Assembly: GCA_030427935.1 (NCBI GenBank)
Contig: JAUICI010000018.1
Span: forward strand, 1-33,404
Direction of reading: 5' to 3'
Source: Bacteroidia bacterium
GTDB taxonomy: Bacteria > Bacteroidota > Bacteroidia > Flavobacteriales_D > Crocinitomicaceae
DNA length: 33,404 nt
This document shows, in pieces, positions 3,030 through 33,404 of the stretch. The translations under genes were made by a program, and so were the position numbers. A model generated the notes under the pieces. That model ran no database searches. It was given only the letters and a program-made list of their open reading frames with translations, and was not told the DNA's origin. Every line of letters begins with the position of its first letter. Positions within the stretch are counted from its first letter, which is position 1.

Positions 3030-3118
3030 ATGCTTTTATCGAGTCTGATGGTGGGTGAAAAGTCATTTTACTTGAACAATTTCAGGGATTTTTCAACAAA
3101 AAATAAAATCCGAAAATT

Positions 3119-3148
3119 TTTGAAAAAATAAATAATGGATTATCTTTG
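3119..3148 (+). promoter_or_regulatory. Bacteroidota-type promoter of tRNA-Leu
   Basis: TTTG (3119-3122), an 18-bp spacer and TATCTTTG (3141-3148) match the Bacteroidota housekeeping promoter (TTTG ... TAnnTTTG). Transcription would begin near 3155, about 28 bp before the tRNA. It may also feed tig-clpP-clpX by read-through. Confidence 0.7.
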
Positions 3149-3182
3149 CGCCCACGTTTTGGTCAAGAGAGACCTTTTTTAT

Positions 3183-3264
3183 GCGGATGTGGTGAAATTG
3201 GTAGACACGCTAGACTTAGGATCTAGTGCTTCACGGCGTGTGGGTTCGACTCCCTCCATCCGCA
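3183..3264 (+). tRNA. tRNA-Leu (anticodon UAG)
   Basis: An 82-nt cloverleaf with a long class II variable arm. Acceptor arms are GCGGATG (3183-3189) and CATCCGC (3257-3263), with discriminator A at 3264. The anticodon stem CTAGA/TCTAG encloses loop CTTAGGA, placing TAG at 3217-3219 (reads CUA leucine codons). The T loop is TTCGACT. The T stem (GTGGG/CCCTC) has one U-U mismatch. CCA is not encoded and must be added after transcription. Confidence 0.95.
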
Positions 3265-3270
3265 CTATTG

Positions 3271-3306
3271 AATGGTATAGGGTTTCTTATACCATTTTTT
3301 GTTTTT
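3271..3306 (+). terminator. Terminator between tRNA-Leu and tig
   Basis: Arms AATGGTATA (3271-3279) and TATACCATT (3288-3296) with an 8-nt loop are followed by a T-rich run to 3306. The hairpin starts 6 bp after the tRNA and ends 22 bp before the tig start codon. Confidence 0.8.
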
Positions 3307-3328
3307 AAGAATTAAATGATCTTTTAAG

Positions 3329-4690
3329 ATGGATATTGTAAGAGAAGACATCGATGCTTTAAATGCAGTTTTGAGAATTAAGGTTGGTCCTGAGGATTAT
3401 AAGGACAAAGTAGAAAAAACCTTGACAGATTACAGAAAGAAGGCAAACATTCCGGGGTTCAGAAAAGGGAAAATCCCAATGGGTGTAATTAAAAAACAAT
3501 ATGGTAGACCCGTATTGGCTGAAGAATTGAATAAAGTAATCAATGATTCTCTTTATGATTTCATCAACAAGAACGAATTGAATATTTTGGGGAATCCGCT
3601 TCCGAAAGAAGACGAAGAAGTGAAAGGAGATTGGGACAACCCAAGTGATTTTGAGTTTACCTATGAAATCGGATTGTCTCCAGACTTTAATTTGAGTTTA
3701 AATGCTAAAAGTAAATACAACTATTACAAAGTTAAGGTTGATAAGAAGTTGGTAGACCAGCAGATCGATGATATTCGAAAAAGATACGGTAAACTAATTC
3801 CAGAGGAGAAAGTTGGTGAGACAGACATGATATTAGGTCAGTTTGTTGAACTAGACGAATCAGGTGCAATCAAAGAAGGTGGAATCATGAATTCCTCTAC
3901 GATTTCAATGGAGTTTGTCGAAGACAAAAAAGTTCAGAAAGAGCTACTTGGAAAGAAAGTTGGAGATGTTGTGGTCTTGGATCCTGCCAATGTTTCTAAA
4001 GGGGAGTCAGACATGGCGGCAATGTTGGGAGTAAAAACCGAAGATCTTGCTGGAATTTCAAATAAATTCAACTTCACGATTAATGAAGTGAAGAGCATGG
4101 AGCCTGCGGAATTGAACGAGGAATTTTTTCAGAAAATCTATCCAGAAGGAGATGTGAAAACTGAGGCTGAAATGAGAGCTAAGGTTGAAGAAGATCTTGG
4201 AAAAATGTTTGCTCAGGACTCAGAGAGAATTCTTTCGAGAGATGTTTCGGAAGATTTAATTGAGAAGACTAAAATGGAATTTCCAGATGCATTCTTGAAA
4301 AGATGGATTCTAGCATCCTCAAATGAAGATGTAACCATGGAAATGATTGAAGGAGACTACGATAATTATACAACGGGATTGAAATGGCAGTTGATTCAAA
4401 ACAAAATCTTCAAGGATAATGAGATTAAAATTGAATCAGAAGAAATTATCCAGTTTACAAAAGGATTATTGGTTAACCAATACGCACAATATGGATTACC
4501 AGCCCCTGAAGAGGCTGAGTTAACCGCAAGTGCTCAAAAAGTATTGGAAAATCGAGACGAAGCAAATAGAATTTACGAAATGATGTCTGGAGATAAACTT
4601 TTAAAGTTTTTCAAGGAGACTGTTAAGTTGAACGAGAAAGAGATTTCTTATGATGAATTCGTAAAAATTGCTTCAGGAGAGAAGAAATAA
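3329..4690 (+). CDS. tig: Trigger factor, ribosome-associated chaperone
   Basis: 453 residues, close to the usual length. Trigger factor docks at the ribosome exit tunnel and shields nascent chains. The N-terminal ribosome-binding domain carries the signature loop GFRKGK at residues 43-48, followed by the expected helix (PMGVIKKQYG). The middle part (about 150-245: QFVELDESG ... GKKVGDVVVLDP) corresponds to the FKBP-like domain but is divergent, as usual in Bacteroidota. The C-terminal helical arms follow (EMRAKVEEDLGKMF and onward). The gene is followed by its own terminator and then by clpP and clpX, the classic tig-clpP-clpX order. Transcription could come from the tRNA promoter through the 3271 terminator or from an unrecognised promoter. 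Confidence 0.97.
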   Translation: MDIVREDIDALNAVLRIKVGPEDYKDKVEKTLTDYRKKANIPGFRKGKIPMGVIKKQYGRPVLAEELNKVINDSLYDFINKNELNILGNPLPKEDEEVKGDWDNPSDFEFTYEIGLSPDFNLSLNAKSKYNYYKVKVDKKLVDQQIDDIRKRYGKLIPEEKVGETDMILGQFVELDESGAIKEGGIMNSSTISMEFVEDKKVQKELLGKKVGDVVVLDPANVSKGESDMAAMLGVKTEDLAGISNKFNFTINEVKSMEPAELNEEFFQKIYPEGDVKTEAEMRAKVEEDLGKMFAQDSERILSRDVSEDLIEKTKMEFPDAFLKRWILASSNEDVTMEMIEGDYDNYTTGLKWQLIQNKIFKDNEIKIESEEIIQFTKGLLVNQYAQYGLPAPEEAELTASAQKVLENRDEANRIYEMMSGDKLLKFFKETVKLNEKEISYDEFVKIASGEKK

Positions 4691-25618: not shown

Positions 25619-26344
25619 CTATTCGAGGAGCTTCAGCGTGCTTTTTCGGATTCCATCGGTTACTTCCAATTCCCCTCCAACAAAAAAGAGAAATGATTTT
25701 GCACCTCTTTTTTCAACACCTTTTAAACGGTCTCGATTAATAATCAAAGATTTATTGATTCTTTGAAAATCCGCACATTCCAAAGTCTCTTCAAGAGAAC
25801 CAAGATTTTGAGATGAGGTACATTCCTTTTCATTATCGTAATGAATCTGAGTATAGCGTCCATCCGCTTTAAGAAAATTAATTTCACAAAAGTCGATCAA
25901 GTAAACTCCTCCCGGGCTTTTGATTGTTAATTTTGCTTTTGCTTCTTCTTTTTCAGTTGATTCAGATTTCTCTTCATTTTCAACTGATTCCTCATCCAAT
26001 TTTTTGAAAAGGGCCATGAACTCTTTGTAGTCCAAAGGCTTTAAAATATAATCGTAAGCCCCATTCTTTAGCGCTTTAATGGCATATTGATCGTATCCTG
26101 TGCAAAAAATAACCTTGGTATTTTTACTATCCCAAATCTCCAGCAGGTCGAATCCCGATTCATTTTTCATTTCAATATCTAGAAACAGAAGATCGGGTTG
26201 ATGTTGATTCAATTGTGGTATTCCTTCTTCGATCGTTTGTGCGGTTCCCACCACTTCAGCGGGGAAATCAAATTGGTCAAATAAATTGATGATGGCATTA
26301 ATACCGTTCAAATCATCATCAATGATTATGGTCTTGTAGCTCAT
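25619..26344 (-). CDS. LytTR-family response regulator
   Basis: 241 residues. The receiver domain (1-~120) has the acidic pocket IIIDDD (Asp9-11), phospho-acceptor Asp56 in LLFLDIEM, and Lys102 in YILKPLDY. An acidic/Lys linker (~120-135) leads to a LytTR DNA-binding domain (~138-241: ADGRYTQIHY, LGSLEETL, FQRINKSLIINRDRL). It should be phosphorylated by the adjacent kinase and bind direct repeats. The start overlaps the kinase gene by 26 bp, so the pair is translationally coupled. Target genes are not evident from the sequence; the 21-bp-period repeat at 25446-25479 is a candidate site. Confidence 0.93.
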   Translation of the reverse strand: MSYKTIIIDDDLNGINAIINLFDQFDFPAEVVGTAQTIEEGIPQLNQHQPDLLFLDIEMKNESGFDLLEIWDSKNTKVIFCTGYDQYAIKALKNGAYDYILKPLDYKEFMALFKKLDEESVENEEKSESTEKEEAKAKLTIKSPGGVYLIDFCEINFLKADGRYTQIHYDNEKECTSSQNLGSLEETLECADFQRINKSLIINRDRLKGVEKRGAKSFLFFVGGELEVTDGIRKSTLKLLE

Positions 26345-29132
26345 TTAAGCGCTGTTTTGTTAAGTATACTTCTATTAGTGTTCCTTGTTTAGCGTTGTCG
26401 GTATTTTTTAGGTCTGTTAATTTAATATTTTTTGAAATATTAGGATTGCTCTCATTGAATATTTTTAATCTATTTTCTACAATTGAAACTCCTTTTGATT
26501 GATGAACTTTCTTTCTGTTTTTAGTATTATCTATACCGATTCCATTATCTTCAATTTGAATAATTAAGGTGTTTTCATCAAGTTCAGAAATTCGAATTTC
26601 AATTTTCGGTTCATCTATTTCTTTGGTAAAAGCATGCCACAAAGCATTTTCTACAAATGGTTGGAGGATCATGGAAGGGATGATGAAGTCGGCAAATTCT
26701 TCTTTTTCGTAGATGATTTGTAGGTCAACTTCGCGAAACTGTCTCACCGATTCCACTTCACAAAAGATTTGATTCAGTTCAATTTCTCTTTGGATAGGAA
26801 TATACAAGTCTGAGGAGTTGTTAAGCATCAACCTGAAAAATCGAGCAAGATCACTCACATACATAAAAACTTTTTTCTTGTCGCCCGACAGGAGTCCCTG
26901 AATCGTATTGAGTGCATTATAAAGAAAATGGGGATTCATTTGGGAAGTAAGCGCATTCATTCTCAAAGTCTCGATAAGTTTTTCAGTTTTTAATCTTTGT
27001 GTGGTAATCTTGTTTCTCCTTCTAATAATAAAGATCGCAACCAGAGCTATGAAAGCTACTATAGAAGCTGAAAACCACCATCGAGAGTAAAATGGGCTTG
27101 GGACTTCGAAAAACCGCTCCTCCAAATAGATCCACTTTTCATTTCCAAATTTTAATCGAACTCGAATGGCGTATTCTCCTGATTTTAGATTTGAAAGCGT
27201 TAATTTATTCGGGTTAAAATCGATGAATTCCCCTTTGTTTAGGCTGTATTGAGCATATACTTTTACTAAAGGATTTAATTGATTCACCTTTATGGCAACA
27301 AATATTTCCTCTCTATCCGGGGAGATTTGGAGTTTATCATTGTAATCAATGTGTTTGGTTTTCAGTTTCTCGCGAATCAATGAAATGGGAATAAAACTCA
27401 CGCCTGTTTCTGTTGCAAGAACAATGGTGTCCTTAAATTTTCGAATCTCTTCGATATTGGAGCTTTTTAGTCCATTTGAATTATTGAAAATGTAGCTTGA
27501 ATTATGTTCTAAATCAAAAACTTCCATATAGCTTTTGGTACCGATAAAGAGTAAATCATCATCTTTTAGAAAACATTTTAATGAGCTTTGATGGTTGGAA
27601 TAAATAGTGTCGTACTTTCCGCTTTTTAAATTGAATTTGAAGATGTTTTCAGTTGTAGCGAATGCGATGTGGTCTTGATCTAAAAATTGAGTTTCGATTA
27701 CTCGGTTTTTGGTTTGTATTAAGTTCGTGGAGTTCCAAAGGTTGTTTTTGATTTCGACATGATTCAATCCAAATTCACCATAAACAATATAATTCGCATC
27801 GTCTAATCGTAAAGTTCCAAGCAGACCTTTTAAATGCACAGTGTCACTCTTTTGATCTGTTCTGGAGTGAAAAGAAATAAATGCTCCATTTGCCTTTACA
27901 AATAGTTCTTTCGTTTCATAGACGAAAGTTTGCGGACTGCGATAAGCGATAGGATGACTAGAAATTAAACTTAAGCCTTTTATCACACCTAATTTATCTA
28001 ATCCAAAAGATTTAAATTTTTCCTTATAAAACTCTTTGAGAAAAAGAGGTAGTTTAAAGGTGTCTATTGGAATGATCTGATTGTTCGTTATGACATTTAT
28101 AGGGTCTTTATCTACATGATTTAATGAGGTGTAAAAGAGTCCATTCTTGTGCGGGTAAAGATGTCGAACCTTGTTTCTTGTTTTGAAGTTTTTGATTTTA
28201 TAATTTGGAAAAAAGTGGAGTCCGCCTTTTACCTCAGGCACCCAAAGACCCGACTTTCCTTTTGAAATGATACCGGCAAATTTACCCTTGAGTAGGACGA
28301 ATTGATGTTCAAGTTTTCCTTGTTTGATTTTGAAAACATTTACCCCTTTAGTTCTTGTAGATACGAATAATAATGAGTCAATTAATTGGACTGATACGAT
28401 TAGGCTTGAATGATATTTATTTCCTTTCAAAGGTGGTAAAGTGTGAGTTCGAATCTTGTTATCATGAATTAAATAAATGACATCTTTATTGAAGTATATG
28501 CTATCTGAATTGATGGCTTTTCCGTAGTGAGCGTCTATGCTTCCCATACTATTTACTTGAAACTTTTTACCAGCAAAATGCATTTGAAAAGTATCATTGA
28601 TAATAGGGACAAAGCGTTTCATGATCTTAGCTTCTAGATCAATAATCAGGTTATTGGTCTTTTTATTAAATTGATTAATTCGACCTTGATTGTCAACTGT
28701 AAAATATCCATCATCAATAAGAAGAAATAGGCTATCATCTGTAAATTCAAAATCATAAAGAATGGAATATTTTAATCGTCCAATTTCCTTATTGAATTCA
28801 TAAGGCAACAATTCATCATCTTCCAAATAATAGAGCCTCTTGTTTGAATATTTGAACCAGAGTTTGCCGTTGCTGATTTTCATTCCAAAACAACTTTCGC
28901 CTTCTTTCACTCCTTTAGGTGTAATCAGTTCAAAATTTCTTCCATCATAAACCGATAAGCCTAGATCATGGGCAATATAAAGTTTGCCATCCTCTGTTTC
29001 ATAGCAGGCATAAACCTCATTTGTTGGTAGCCCGTTGGTATTATTAAAATTGTAGGATTGCGGTTCTTGAGCGAATAATCCCTTGCTCAAGAATAAAAAA
29101 AGTAAGGTTGCTATTGTAAGGAAACTCCTCAT
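26319..29132 (-). CDS. LytS-like sensor histidine kinase with propeller sensor
   Basis: About 937 residues from the ATG at 29132 (a TTG four codons upstream is less likely). Signal peptide ~1-22 (ends GLFAQ). The periplasmic sensor begins with a regulator-propeller repeat (GLPTNEVYACYETEDGKLYIAHDLGLSVYDG) and contains more propeller-like blades; a Y_Y_Y-type domain (~600-670: YAQYSLNKGEFIDFNPNKLTLSNLKSGEYAIRVR) precedes the single transmembrane segment at ~685-703. The kinase core is the LytS/His_kinase type: QMNPHFLYNALNTIQGLLSG with His735, then LQPFVENALWHAF (N box) and EDNGIGI. No receiver domain is fused, so it is not a hybrid. The signal sensed is unknown; polysaccharide ligands are common for propeller sensors of Bacteroidota, but no polysaccharide genes lie nearby. 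Confidence 0.92.
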   Translation of the reverse strand: MRSFLTIATLLFLFLSKGLFAQEPQSYNFNNTNGLPTNEVYACYETEDGKLYIAHDLGLSVYDGRNFELITPKGVKEGESCFGMKISNGKLWFKYSNKRLYYLEDDELLPYEFNKEIGRLKYSILYDFEFTDDSLFLLIDDGYFTVDNQGRINQFNKKTNNLIIDLEAKIMKRFVPIINDTFQMHFAGKKFQVNSMGSIDAHYGKAINSDSIYFNKDVIYLIHDNKIRTHTLPPLKGNKYHSSLIVSVQLIDSLLFVSTRTKGVNVFKIKQGKLEHQFVLLKGKFAGIISKGKSGLWVPEVKGGLHFFPNYKIKNFKTRNKVRHLYPHKNGLFYTSLNHVDKDPINVITNNQIIPIDTFKLPLFLKEFYKEKFKSFGLDKLGVIKGLSLISSHPIAYRSPQTFVYETKELFVKANGAFISFHSRTDQKSDTVHLKGLLGTLRLDDANYIVYGEFGLNHVEIKNNLWNSTNLIQTKNRVIETQFLDQDHIAFATTENIFKFNLKSGKYDTIYSNHQSSLKCFLKDDDLLFIGTKSYMEVFDLEHNSSYIFNNSNGLKSSNIEEIRKFKDTIVLATETGVSFIPISLIREKLKTKHIDYNDKLQISPDREEIFVAIKVNQLNPLVKVYAQYSLNKGEFIDFNPNKLTLSNLKSGEYAIRVRLKFGNEKWIYLEERFFEVPSPFYSRWWFSASIVAFIALVAIFIIRRRNKITTQRLKTEKLIETLRMNALTSQMNPHFLYNALNTIQGLLSGDKKKVFMYVSDLARFFRLMLNNSSDLYIPIQREIELNQIFCEVESVRQFREVDLQIIYEKEEFADFIIPSMILQPFVENALWHAFTKEIDEPKIEIRISELDENTLIIQIEDNGIGIDNTKNRKKVHQSKGVSIVENRLKIFNESNPNISKNIKLTDLKNTDNAKQGTLIEVYLTKQRLNELQDHNH

Positions 29133-29154
29133 TAATGGAACCAAATATAAATGA

Positions 29155-29202: not shown

Positions 29203-30141
29203 TTAAGCTACCACGTCCATATCGTCTAGAACTTTCATAACACCTCTAACTGCAACAGCAGATTCTTCAAGAAGTGCTTTTTCATCAGCATTTAAATCCA
29301 ATTCGATGATTTTTTCGATTCCGTTCTTTCCTAAGATTACTGGAACACCTAAGTAAATATCGTTCATTCCGTATTCACCAGTTAACCAAGAACAAACTGG
29401 GAAAACTCTTTTTTGGTCTTTTACAATAGCTTCAACCATTTGAGCAGCAGCTGCTCCTGGAGCGTACCATGCAGAAGTTCCTAAAAGCTTCACGATCTCA
29501 CCACCACCAAACTTGGTTCTTTCGATGATTGCATCTAGTTTATCTGCATCTATCAATTCAGTTACAGGAATACCTCCAACTGTTGTATATCTTGGTAAAG
29601 GAACCATCGTGTCTCCATGACCGCCCATCAATACTGCTTGGATGTCTTTTGGAGAAACGTTCAATTCTAGTGCAAGAAAAGATCTGTATCTAGCTGTGTC
29701 CAAAACACCAGCCATTCCAAAAACTTTAGAAGAATCAACTTTTGCAGTTAAGTATGCGCAATAAGTCATTACATCTAAAGGATTCGATACACAAATAATT
29801 TTCGCATCTGGAGAGTGTTTGATTACATTTTCTGTTACCGACTTCACGATATTTGCGTTTGTCGCGATTAAGTCATCTCTGGACATACCTGGTTTTCTAG
29901 GAAGACCAGAAGTAATTACCACTACCTCTGAACCAGCAGTTTTAGAATAATCATTTGTAGAACCTGTAATTCTTGAATCATATAGGTTTACTGGTGAAGT
30001 TTCCCACATATCCAATGCTTTTCCTTCAGCAAAACCTTCTTTAATGTCAAGTAAAACGATTTCATTGGCAACTTCGTTGTGTGCCAATACATTTGCACAA
30101 GTAGATCCAACATTACCTGCACCAACAACTGTAACTTTCAT
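29203..30141 (-). CDS. mdh: Malate dehydrogenase (NAD)
   Basis: 312 residues, full length for the LDH-like MDH group. The NAD-binding loop is GAGNVG at 7-12 with Asp32 (VLLDI) indicating NAD preference. Substrate Arg82 and Arg88 sit in GLPRKPGMSRDDL, the NAD-side motif is VSNPLDVMTY, and the catalytic pair is Asp148/His175 (MAGVLDTAR and MGGHGDTMV), with Arg151. It interconverts malate and oxaloacetate in the TCA cycle. A stand-alone gene with a terminator after it and a plausible TTG-N20-TATTTTCG promoter upstream. Nothing odd. Confidence 0.96.
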   Translation of the reverse strand: MKVTVVGAGNVGSTCANVLAHNEVANEIVLLDIKEGFAEGKALDMWETSPVNLYDSRITGSTNDYSKTAGSEVVVITSGLPRKPGMSRDDLIATNANIVKSVTENVIKHSPDAKIICVSNPLDVMTYCAYLTAKVDSSKVFGMAGVLDTARYRSFLALELNVSPKDIQAVLMGGHGDTMVPLPRYTTVGGIPVTELIDADKLDAIIERTKFGGGEIVKLLGTSAWYAPGAAAAQMVEAIVKDQKRVFPVCSWLTGEYGMNDIYLGVPVILGKNGIEKIIELDLNADEKALLEESAVAVRGVMKVLDDMDVVA

Positions 30142-30284: not shown

Positions 30285-30292
30285 TAAATTTG
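30285..30292 (+). promoter_or_regulatory. Putative -7 box (TAAATTTG) for the ECF sigma gene
   Basis: TAAATTTG fits TAnnTTTG and lies 42 bp before the GTG start. No TTG at the -33 spacing is seen. An ECF-type autoregulatory promoter could not be recognised. Confidence 0.4.
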
Positions 30293-30334
30293 GCAACCCT
30301 CAAAAAAAAGTGTCGTCTTAATACAGAAAACTAA

Positions 30335-30901
30335 GTGGAAACAGACAAAAGTGAATTAGAACGTATTGTCAGAGGCTGTATCCAGAAAGACAGTAAATGT
30401 CAGGAGGAACTGTTTCGGATGTTGTACGGGAAAATGATGTCGGTTTGCATGAGGTACTCTAGAGATGAAGATACGGCTCAAGAAGTCCTCCAAGTTGGTT
30501 TTATTAAGGTCTTTGACAAATTGGAAAAGTATGATTTCAATGGTTCCTTTGAGGGATGGGTCAGAAGAATTGTAGTAAACACCGCAATTGATCATATCCG
30601 GAAAAGCAAACGAGATCCCTTTTCATCCTCTGAAGATTATTTATATGTAGAAGAAGATGAAATGGCAATTGAAGATGATGCCGAACAAAATGTAGAGTTG
30701 AAAGCCGCTGAGGCAATGAAGGCTTTGCAGATGTTGTCTCCTGCTTATCAGGCAGTGTTTAACCTTTATGTGATTGAAAATTACACGCACAAAGAGGTGG
30801 CAGAAATCTTGGGAATCAGTGAAGGTACTTCTAAATACAATTTGGCTAAGGCAAAGAAAAAACTGCAGGATATCTTGCAGGATAAGATTGTTGGAATATA
30901 A
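30335..30901 (+). CDS. ECF-type RNA polymerase sigma factor
   Basis: 188 residues from a GTG; an in-frame TAA lies directly upstream, so this is the earliest possible start. Region 2 is clear: MRYSRDEDTAQEVLQVGFIKVFDKLEKYDFNGSFEGWVRRIVVNTAIDHIRK. Region 4 is LQMLSPAYQAVFNLYVIENYTHKEVAEILGISEGTSKYNLAKAKKKL, a helix-turn-helix. Size and domain set are those of an extracytoplasmic-function sigma factor. It is followed after 8 bp by a membrane protein that sits where an anti-sigma factor is expected. The regulon is unknown. Confidence 0.94.
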   Translation: METDKSELERIVRGCIQKDSKCQEELFRMLYGKMMSVCMRYSRDEDTAQEVLQVGFIKVFDKLEKYDFNGSFEGWVRRIVVNTAIDHIRKSKRDPFSSSEDYLYVEEDEMAIEDDAEQNVELKAAEAMKALQMLSPAYQAVFNLYVIENYTHKEVAEILGISEGTSKYNLAKAKKKLQDILQDKIVGI

Positions 30902-30909
30902 ATGCTACT

Positions 30910-32235
30910 ATGAATAATTTAGAATCGAAATTCAAACAGGCGCTGGAAAACCATGAGGTGGATTACAATCCGCAGGCATGGGATGCCTTCAAGCAGAAGC
31001 TTGATGCACAGCCATCTGTTCCGAATGGAGGTTCGAAAACACTCGCCAAACTCGGAATTGCTGCTACCGTAGTGACGACTTTGTCCATCGGGGCTTATTT
31101 CTTATTTAATGGATCTGGTTCGGATGCTGGGTCTGCAAAGAATCAAAACGATCAGGTGAATGTGATCGAAAACCAATCGGAAAACAATCAAAAAGATCAG
31201 AAAGATTTAATGGTGAATAATGGAGGGGGAAATCCTGCGGTTATTAATCATAATCCTTCAGATAATCATAATGATGAGGTTATTGAAGAAATTAAAAATG
31301 AACCGTATAAGTCACCAGACTTGAATGAAGGTGATCAAAATACGAATATTGTTGATTTCAAATTTAATCCTGTTAATCCGGTTGTCAAGGATGAGAATAA
31401 TCTGGTTCCAGACCACAATCCCAATAAATCGGACGAACAGAAGTTAGTGCTGAATGCCAATTTCTCTGTTAACGTGATTTCAGGATGTGAAGGTTTAACT
31501 TGTCAGTTCTCTCCAAAACAAGACCAATCTTATAAAGGTGATTATGTATGGGATTTTGGGGATGGAACATTTTCAAAAGAAAGAAACCCAAGTCATACTT
31601 ATGATAAACCTGGAAACTTTGTGGTAAAACTGGCTCTTAGATCGGAAATCAATAATGAAGTTATTTCGGATCAGGCTCAGGAATATATTACGGTCTATCC
31701 AAAGCCAAAAGCAAGTTTTGAAATTGATGAGATGTCAAGCGGAACTGCGATTCCAGAATATGATTTCATCAATACAACAGATCGAGCTACAAGCTGGATA
31801 TGGACATTCGGAGACAATGCTTCAAGCACGAAAAAGGATCCATCTCACACTTACAGAAAGAAGGGGATGTACAAAGTAAAATTGACTGCTGAAAATTCGT
31901 TTGGATGTCAGTCAGTTTACACGAAAACAGTTGCTGTTGATAACGATTACAACTTATTAGCTCCAACTGGGTTTACTCCAAATGGGGACGGACTGAACGA
32001 TAATTTTATCCCAAAGGCACTTGAGATCATGAATGCGGAATTTACGATGAGTATTTTCCATAAGAATGGTCAGCTTTATTACGAGACAAATCAAGTCTCT
32101 AGACCTTGGGACGGAAGATATATGATGGACAATCAAAATGCGCCTGGAGGGGCATATGTATGGGTTGTTCAGTTAAAAAATAAGAATGGAGAAACTGAAG
32201 TTTATAAAGGTTCAGTGACACTATTAAGAGATTAA
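30910..32235 (+). CDS. Membrane protein with anti-sigma-like N-terminus, PKD domains and type B-like sorting domain
   Basis: 441 residues. There is no cleavable signal peptide. The N-terminal ~45 residues are soluble (MNNLESKFKQALENHEVDYNPQAWDAFKQKLD), a short helical segment of the type seen before the membrane helix of ECF anti-sigma factors. One transmembrane helix spans ~46-67. An Asn/Asp-rich linker (70-180) precedes two PKD domains (~182-263 with YVWDFGDGTF; ~265-343 with WIWTFGDNAS). The last ~90 residues (350-441) are a CHU_C/gliding-motility type domain: TGFTPNGDGLNDNFIP ... RPWDGR ... PGGAYVWVVQLKNKNG ... YKGSVTLLRD. The order N-in, membrane, C-out suggests it links the periplasm or T9SS with the sigma factor encoded 8 bp upstream. 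The anti-sigma role is inference; no ZAS/HxxxCxxC motif is visible. Confidence 0.88.
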   Translation: MNNLESKFKQALENHEVDYNPQAWDAFKQKLDAQPSVPNGGSKTLAKLGIAATVVTTLSIGAYFLFNGSGSDAGSAKNQNDQVNVIENQSENNQKDQKDLMVNNGGGNPAVINHNPSDNHNDEVIEEIKNEPYKSPDLNEGDQNTNIVDFKFNPVNPVVKDENNLVPDHNPNKSDEQKLVLNANFSVNVISGCEGLTCQFSPKQDQSYKGDYVWDFGDGTFSKERNPSHTYDKPGNFVVKLALRSEINNEVISDQAQEYITVYPKPKASFEIDEMSSGTAIPEYDFINTTDRATSWIWTFGDNASSTKKDPSHTYRKKGMYKVKLTAENSFGCQSVYTKTVAVDNDYNLLAPTGFTPNGDGLNDNFIPKALEIMNAEFTMSIFHKNGQLYYETNQVSRPWDGRYMMDNQNAPGGAYVWVVQLKNKNGETEVYKGSVTLLRD

Positions 32236-32280: not shown

Positions 32281-32315
32281 AAAACCCGAAATCGTTCGAT
32301 TTTGGGTTTTGCTTT
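32281..32315 (+). terminator. Strong terminator after the sigma/membrane-protein operon
   Basis: A long stem: AAAACCC (32281-32287) with GGGTTTT (32304-32310), continued by G-U and AAATCG/CGATTT. A T-rich tail with interruptions follows. It lies 45 bp after the stop. Confidence 0.9.
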
Positions 32316-32532: not shown

Positions 32533-33404
32533 ATGAGATTGCTACGCTATCTAGCCCTTTTCTTATCTGTTTTTTTCTATGTTGGCAAATCTGCTAACGC
32601 ATGTGACGGATTCCAAGTAAATACCATTTCAACCACATACATCGGTGGTGGTGTCTATGAAGTTACGATTGAGTATTGTGAAGAAGTTTCAAACGGAGCA
32701 GGCGCGTCTGTTCATGGAGTTCTGGCAATCATCAATGGTGCGAATATTATTTCCACTTCCACGCCAAGTATTACAAGTGCAGCAACTGGGGTAACCATGA
32801 ATTACAATCAATTGACTGCAAATACTGCTGAATGGGGAGATTGGGATAATGATGGTGCGCCTATATTCATGGATGATGGTGACCCACAAGAATGTTTTAC
32901 TTTGGTTTTACAAGTAGATGCACAACCGACATCGGTAACGTTTTCAGGTTCTTCCAATAGCACTGCGGTTGGATCAGGTTTTACTTTATTGAACGGAAGA
33001 TGGTCATGTAATGAGACGGTTAACTTTCCACCTCCTACGTGTTCTGCTAGTTGGACAGCTCCTGATGTTTGTAGAGGTGGTGGTCCAGTGGATTTAAACG
33101 CTACTACAACTGGGAATGGAACTTTTAGTGGTCCGGGGGTGAATTCAGCAACAGGTATGTTTGATCCAACTGGATTGACAGGAAATATTTCTGTGACTTT
33201 TACAGTGGGAGATGCATTATTTAATTGTACTGAAACTCAAGTTATCCAAATTATTGACCTTGATCCAGGTCTTGTTGATGCAACAATATGCGACGGGGAT
33301 TGTGTGCAATTTGACGCTACTGTTGTTGGTGCAGGAAATACAACTGATTGTATTTATACTTTATTACTTGAGGATTCCGGATCAGATGGCTGGGGAGCAG
33401 CAAA
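32533..33404 (+). CDS. Large secreted protein, N-terminal part (runs off the window)
   Basis: At least 290 codons are open from the ATG at 32533 to the window end. Signal peptide ~1-24 (LLRYLALFLSVFFYVGKSANA). The mature part is rich in Thr, Gly, Asn and Asp with few Lys, and reads as consecutive beta-sandwich modules: one ending near SCNETVNFPPP, a PKD/Ig-like block (CSASWTAPDVCRGGGPVDLNATTTGNGTFSGPGVNSATGMFDPTGLTG), and a third module starting DATICDGDC. The final residues ...CIYTLLLEDSGSDGWG match the DGWG-type modules frequent in flavobacterial secreted giants. A T9SS sorting domain is expected downstream but not visible. Probably a surface adhesin or gliding-associated protein; it sits next to the type B-domain membrane protein. 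Confidence 0.85.
   Translation, partial: MRLLRYLALFLSVFFYVGKSANACDGFQVNTISTTYIGGGVYEVTIEYCEEVSNGAGASVHGVLAIINGANIISTSTPSITSAATGVTMNYNQLTANTAEWGDWDNDGAPIFMDDGDPQECFTLVLQVDAQPTSVTFSGSSNSTAVGSGFTLLNGRWSCNETVNFPPPTCSASWTAPDVCRGGGPVDLNATTTGNGTFSGPGVNSATGMFDPTGLTGNISVTFTVGDALFNCTETQVIQIIDLDPGLVDATICDGDCVQFDATVVGAGNTTDCIYTLLLEDSGSDGWGAA

Follow-up and report, generated by a model that had tools for sequence, protein, structure and literature searches.

Why would an ECF sigma factor gene be paired with a gene for a membrane-anchored protein that ends in a relative of the type B C-terminal sorting domains (CTDs) of the type IX secretion system (T9SS)? The window, i.e., the whole stretch of 33,404 nucleotides analyzed here, corresponds to contig C38 in a draft genome of 3.9 Mb. 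The ECF sigma factor gene, the 8-bp gap behind it, the coordinates, the gene order and the domains given in the preliminary description were all recovered from open reading frames and from Pfam and NCBIfam matches. The features on which the argument rests are the following.

29203..30141, minus strand: malate dehydrogenase gene (mdh), a divergent neighbor that serves as a synteny marker outside the mechanism (upstream in 45/52 orthologous loci).
30292..30317, plus strand: ECF-type promoter GGCAACC-N15-CGTC, separated by 17 bp from the start codon of the sigma gene; putative autoregulatory element.
30335..30901, plus strand: ECF sigma factor gene (188 aa, GTG start), assigned by Pfam/NCBIfam and with orthologs across the order.
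30910..32235, plus strand: putative anti-sigma factor gene (441 aa), starting 8 bp after the sigma gene.
30913..31008, plus strand: predicted cytosolic anti-sigma domain (ASD), residues 2-33, with the invariant Trp24 and the family consensus NFEKLIKESLENYEAPYDPAAWEAIESKLD; assigned from conservation, HMM scores against decoys, tandem copies and a pLDDT of 93-96 in a sigma-ASD model.
31045..31107, plus strand: predicted single transmembrane helix, residues 46-66 (AlphaFold2 helix; hydropathy of relatives).
31108..31449, plus strand: predicted disordered Asn/Asp-rich tether, residues 67-180 (pLDDT mostly 35-52; median length of 117 aa in orthologs).
31453..31947, plus strand: two PKD domains, residues about 182-346 (Pfam; fold match to PKD structures with Z 10-13).
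31954..32232, plus strand: type B CTD-derived (CHU_C/TIGR04131) module, residues 349-441, with F366-x-P368 and lacking an NRWG-like motif.
32281..32310, plus strand: intrinsic terminator-like hairpin with a 13-bp stem, ending the two-gene operon.

The sigma protein contains Pfam r2 and r4_2 domains, and the nearest named relative found, a sigma factor from a Crocinitomicaceae MAG, is 87% identical to it. The preliminary description had proposed to survey related genomes for conserved linkage. We collected sigma orthologs from 52 genomes belonging to the same family or order; in all 51 loci that are readable downstream, a gene for a partner of the same architecture directly follows the sigma gene, and the pairing is therefore not due to chance. 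The two genes mostly overlap or are separated by few bases in the orthologous loci, and from their arrangement we consider those in the window a two-gene operon. No gene, and hence no TonB-dependent transducer gene as in FecR signaling, is conserved downstream of the pair across the 52 orthologous loci. Because of this and the terminator-like hairpin, the large secreted protein gene that begins at 32533 is regarded as a separate unit; it had been described as following directly but lies behind the terminator and outside the unit. On the other side, next to mdh, the minus strand of the window (25619-29144) encodes a histidine kinase with a two-component-propeller/Y_Y_Y-type sensor and a LytTR-like response regulator, which are likewise outside the unit. 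Crocinitomicaceae-like versions of the locus are also deposited under titles naming Glaciecola, Kuenenia, Chryseobacterium gleum or Chitinophaga pinensis (L152 (CP034120.1), L139, L150, L151 and L153), and these names look wrong.

The partner matches the Pfam models for two PKD domains (PF18911, E 4e-27) and for CHU_C (PF13585, E 8e-15, residues 352-438), and it matches TIGR04131 with 40.9 bits (cut-off 35). An AlphaFold2 model, built on 40 aligned sequences, predicts short N-terminal helices (residues 2-14 and 21-32), the transmembrane helix (46-66), disorder from 67 to 180 and three beta-sandwich domains with pLDDT >90 over most of residues 181-441. No cleavable signal peptide is evident, as had been noted before, and about 45 residues precede the sole hydrophobic helix.

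We are highly confident that the second gene encodes the anti-sigma factor for the adjacent ECF sigma factor. Trp24 is invariant in 50 orthologs of the partner. An HMM of the ASD also hits the N termini of further proteins that are encoded next to sigma genes and have very different distal parts, among them proteins of the beta-barrel type (L205, L192, L200 and L182) at 22-31 bits, with decoys reaching at most 7.1; outer-membrane barrel models are matched by L182 and L200, and L192 and L205 are barrel-like with no Pfam match. With the iterated HMM, which had taken in the sequences of the loci themselves and for which the decoys (maximum 7.6 bits) are the control, 69/75 named sigma-neighbor loci across the phylum score >12 bits. 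Ten proteins carry the ASD in two to four tandem copies; one of these (L173) has four, and the two or three copies in the other nine (L065, L067, L068, L074, L079, L082, L092, L142 and L146) possibly reflect a multi-sigma or stoichiometry effect. No model in Pfam or NCBIfam matches the ASD. The partner has no Pfam match to a class I ASD (RseA/RsiW/zf-HC2, four-helix), its N terminus being predicted to form two short helices, and it matches neither the FecR domain nor RsgI_N. Judged by these profile matches, the N-terminal domain belongs to a phylum-wide family that lacks a model and is also present in Dma-type ("dual membrane-spanning anti-sigma") beta-barrel proteins. In a coevolution study, only 6% of Bacteroidetes ECF sigma factors were found near a class I anti-sigma domain, and other classes were suggested to dominate (PMC7406223); an ASD of ∼30 residues located beside so many named ECF genes is a strong candidate for a missing anti-sigma class. 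The earlier proposal that the N terminus holds the sigma factor is very probably correct, given the conserved linkage, the tandem copies and the homology to the N termini of beta-barrel anti-sigma candidates. The partner had also been described as standing in place of an anti-sigma factor; it is better described as being, very probably, the anti-sigma factor itself. Paralogous ECF genes in the source genome (C46 (L102) and C1 (L103)) and in loci L104, L105 and L106 are followed by anti-sigma candidates with other distal parts, either short CHU_C proteins or outer-membrane barrels.

In one locus (L158), the sigma and anti-sigma genes are in frame, and we modeled both products as one chain by reading through the stop codons between them, purely as a modeling device and not as something that the organism is held to do. 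In this model, the ASD helices have a pLDDT of 93-96, and the linker is of low confidence. The modeled sigma factor superimposes on anti-sigma-bound ECF sigma factors at 5.1 Å over 155 residues (SigW/RsiW) and 6.0 Å over 150 residues (CnrH/CnrY), and poorly on RNAP-bound ones (about 26 Å). With regard to a CnrY-like class II arrangement, in which a short helical segment wraps the sigma factor, the resemblance to CnrH concerns the sigma part of the model. As a single read-through chain without interface confidence scores and with no sigma-alone model for comparison, the model weakly favors the shape of an anti-sigma-bound sigma factor.

Which genes, then, would this sigma factor control? An AAC-N14-18-CGT site is present in 53/57 upstream regions vs 12/57 on the reverse strand, and GCAAC(C)-N15-CGTY adjoins nearly all mdh-linked sigma orthologs. 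We infer that GGCAACC-N15-CGTY is the conserved autoregulatory promoter of the sigma operon, and it is from this autoregulation that we connect the sigma factor to the motif. In 14 discovery genomes, most of the strict non-self sites that were followed up precede operons for secreted proteins, typically with a gene for a protein of 115-150 aa followed by one for a giant protein that has a type B CTD at its end. For replication, 40 regions around non-self sites from 35 further genomes were picked regardless of content, a sample that is not exhaustive, and the association with such cargo genes was reproduced there. TIGR04131 has 32-60 matches per genome, which puts the base rate of type B CTDs at about 1-1.5% of genes; if this rate is taken as ∼1.5%, the binomial probability of at least 10 in 42 is near 5e-10. 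Sites of the reversed motif, used as a control and read in both directions, lie inside ORFs in 20/20 cases, none with type B CTD cargo (Fisher P = 7e-4 vs the true motif). Among the regulon C termini matched with NCBIfam, three are above the type B cut-off and a fourth (L300) is below it; further cargo candidates behind the motif are truncated at contig ends or fragmented (L282, L298/L299 and L293). NCBIfam also places type A CTD cargo behind five more motif sites, and a PorP/SprF gene follows the site in L267 and, judged by its sequence, in L258. The second strict site of the source genome (C60) is located between a PorP/SprF gene and a gene pair for a small secreted protein and a giant protein. 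Altogether, it is very likely that the sigma regulon consists of T9SS cargo genes, mostly those for giant proteins with a type B CTD.

The motif does not have the same surroundings everywhere. No type B cargo was seen behind it in genomes with the L086, L094 and L096 families. Of the genomes that lack the sigma ortholog, G051 has no motif, G009 has one, inside an ORF, and G042 keeps intergenic sites, its sigma gene possibly lying in an assembly gap. When one mismatch was allowed, the motif found 23 sites in the source genome compared to 35 for the reversed control, i.e., it performed no better. Small secreted proteins of 115-176 aa are regularly encoded ahead of the giant CTD protein (L248, L255, L256, L257, L258, L264, L272, L292 and C60 (L252) of the source genome), and neither of the two that were scanned matches a Pfam model. 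Elsewhere in the order, in other families (L284, L286, L290, L295 and L297), the motif precedes the gene for a lookalike small membrane protein, which contained DUF5684 in the one scanned. We rejected sprA as a regulon member: its upstream regions contained no motif in 30 genomes, and the switch therefore does not obviously control the core T9SS machine. Because sprA is present in 58/59 relatives, the presence or absence of a T9SS does not discriminate for the pair.

The distal module of the anti-sigma factor resembles the CTDs of this cargo and also departs from them. An aromatic residue at 366 and P368 (aromatic-x-Pro) are present in 50/50 anti-sigma CTDs. The same Pro is found in 16/19 regulon cargo CTDs compared to 8/50 other type B CTDs (Fisher 2e-7), namely 6/20 from the source genome and 2/30 top-scoring ones from five relatives; against the source genome alone, the Fisher value is 8e-4. 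These P values overstate independence, as the cargo CTDs are interrelated, and the 30 comparison CTDs, being the best TIGR04131 scorers, lean toward canonical ones. By contrast, an NRWG-like motif is present in 0/50 anti-sigma CTDs vs 61/69 cargo CTDs, and a PN-D--N loop in 20/50 vs 65/69; the CTD in the window keeps the loop and lacks NRWG. TIGR04131 recognizes 20/50 orthologous anti-sigma CTDs, and those of the L086, L094 and L096 families are barely recognizable. Profiles of the whole domain are equivocal: they place the anti-sigma CTDs weakly nearer to the regulon cargo class (30-43/50, depending on the subsample) and the CTD in the window slightly nearer to the nonregulon class. According to PMC12618676, mutating each of five conserved CTD motifs in Flavobacterium johnsoniae abolishes secretion of a SprB-CTD reporter, whether NRWG is among the five not being established. 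The reading of this domain as an ordinary type B export signal is not supported, given the missing NRWG-like motif and the TIGR04131 count. Instead of being a tag for export, the CTD of the anti-sigma factor is probably a derived, nonexported module for docking or sensing.

PorP/SprF proteins are known partners of type B CTDs (PMC9143113, PMC12618676), and in F. johnsoniae type B CTDs have cognate PorP/SprF shuttles (PMC12618676). The source genome has 16 PorP/SprF matches. In L173 (4054-5895), the sigma-adjacent protein consists of its four ASDs, a transmembrane helix and a PorP/SprF domain (77.6 bits). The source genome has a comparable arrangement in contig C189 (G000:C189:3089-8689; L359:3089-8689), where a second ECF gene (3089-3583) is followed by a gene for a 662-aa anti-sigma-like protein with a cytosolic segment, a transmembrane helix, a tether and a PorP/SprF barrel, then by a PorP/SprF gene and a GldK-like gene (FGE-sulfatase domain). 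Long PorP/SprF proteins resembling the 662-aa protein occur in about 19 relatives. Sigma partners that carry PorP/SprF make it more plausible that sigma systems of this group sense the T9SS state, short of proof for the pair in the window.

We suggest a model in which the ECF sigma factor is kept at the inner membrane by the N-terminal helices in the cytosol, while the tether carries the two PKD domains and the sorting-domain-derived module across the periplasm. The module would not itself be exported but would dock either with the type B branch of the T9SS, at PorP/SprF-like shuttles or at the translocon, or with cargo that is passing through. Depending on the occupancy of this partner, the anti-sigma factor would retain or release the sigma factor, by a conformational change or proteolysis; free sigma factor would transcribe its own operon and the T9SS cargo operons, thereby coupling cargo synthesis to the secretion state. 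As a whole, we consider this sigma/anti-sigma switch on balance a likely explanation. That the state of the T9SS or its cargo is the signal sensed is credible but somewhat short of likely. The preliminary description had secretion or surface status being reported to transcription, and of this the T9SS link is retained, through the predicted cargo regulon. More speculatively, and rather unlikely in this exact form, the unexported sorting-domain relative may compete with the cargo of its own regulon for PorP/SprF-like shuttles, in which case free secretion capacity would set the expression of giant surface proteins and the sister switches would use a PorP/SprF barrel as the sensor.

Other explanations share parts of this evidence. 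The PKD domains and CTD could be the rigid, Ig-like distal part, of T9SS ancestry, of an anti-sigma factor akin to Dma that responds to some unrelated signal from the periplasm or outer membrane, e.g., envelope damage or glycans, with the cargo as mere output. The CTD loops, degenerate in most orthologs, together with the loss of the NRWG-like motif from all 50, would fit such a protein, as would the very different distal modules of relatives, which include barrels and short tails, and the ties of Dma1 and Dma2 to vesiculation and PUL regulation (PMC13088901). However, the output is T9SS cargo from a CTD sub-class with the same aromatic-x-Pro signature, and PorP/SprF is itself the distal module in L173. 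We regard sensing of an unrelated signal as possible but unlikely.

A switch resembling FlgM, in which the CTD is a true export signal and a working T9SS pulls on the anti-sigma factor, thereby freeing the sigma factor for cargo expression, draws on the same regulated cargo genes and on the TIGR04131 match of the protein in the window. It is improbable in view of the anti-sigma CTDs, none of which has an NRWG-like motif, and of the dependence of the F. johnsoniae reporter on each of its five motifs, with the reservation on NRWG given above. Least of all do we expect the second protein to be ordinary type B cargo that retains its N terminus and lies beside the sigma gene by chance. PKD domains with a TIGR04131 match are typical of cargo, but the order-wide operon, an ASD with an invariant Trp24, tandem ASD copies and the lack of both a signal peptide and an NRWG-like motif make this very improbable.

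If the T9SS link is true, the proposed switch provides a route by which the secretion state could control how secreted surface proteins are made, and it may let the cell match surface-protein output to the state of the type IX secretion route. The conserved promoter makes such control directly testable.

Several known systems share elements of this design. In clostridial RsgI/SigI and in FecR cell-surface signaling, a single-pass anti-sigma factor carries a distal sensing module. The protein in the window has the same single-pass plan with a distal module; it differs by lacking RsgI_N and FecR and by a distal module that appears to derive from a T9SS CTD. FlgM couples sigma-28 activity to the secretion state, with cargo synthesis following; however, FlgM is soluble and exported, whereas the anti-sigma factor in the window is predicted to be membrane anchored and its export is unlikely. 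In the PorXY-SigP/PorA pathway of Porphyromonas gingivalis, an ECF sigma factor and a CTD protein likewise belong to a single pathway that controls T9SS genes, but PorA is surface exposed and acts through a two-component system, and SigP regulates T9SS components, whereas here it is cargo genes that carry the promoter; PMC7712824, the source on this pathway, names no downstream anti-sigma candidate for SigP. The SM6 promoters of Flavobacterium psychrophilum share the ECF-type CGT -10 box and have T9SS genes and an ECF/anti-sigma pair among their targets; by contrast, the targets listed include gldN and porU and not giant cargo (PMC9723704).

The closest counterpart is the Dma type, for which Pardue et al. 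2024 in PNAS is reportedly the reference. In Dma proteins of Bacteroides thetaiotaomicron, an anti-sigma domain is followed by a transmembrane helix, a disordered tether and a beta-barrel, and the gene adjoins that of an ECF21 sigma factor (PMC13088901). Compared by this described plan, not by the B. thetaiotaomicron sequences, the protein in the window is also encoded next to a sigma gene and is predicted to have an N-terminal ASD and one transmembrane helix, followed by a long disordered tether that leads to a distal domain within reach of the outer membrane; moreover, its ASD family also heads beta-barrel proteins. The two differ in that the distal module is PKD-PKD-CTD in the window and a C-terminal beta-barrel in Dma, and in that the regulon predicted here is T9SS cargo. 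In our literature search, we found no anti-sigma factor with a CHU_C or PKD domain. Thus, the general plan is already known as Dma, and what is new is the distal module and the regulon; the coupling of this Dma-type architecture to the T9SS is plausible and, in the literature searched, undescribed.
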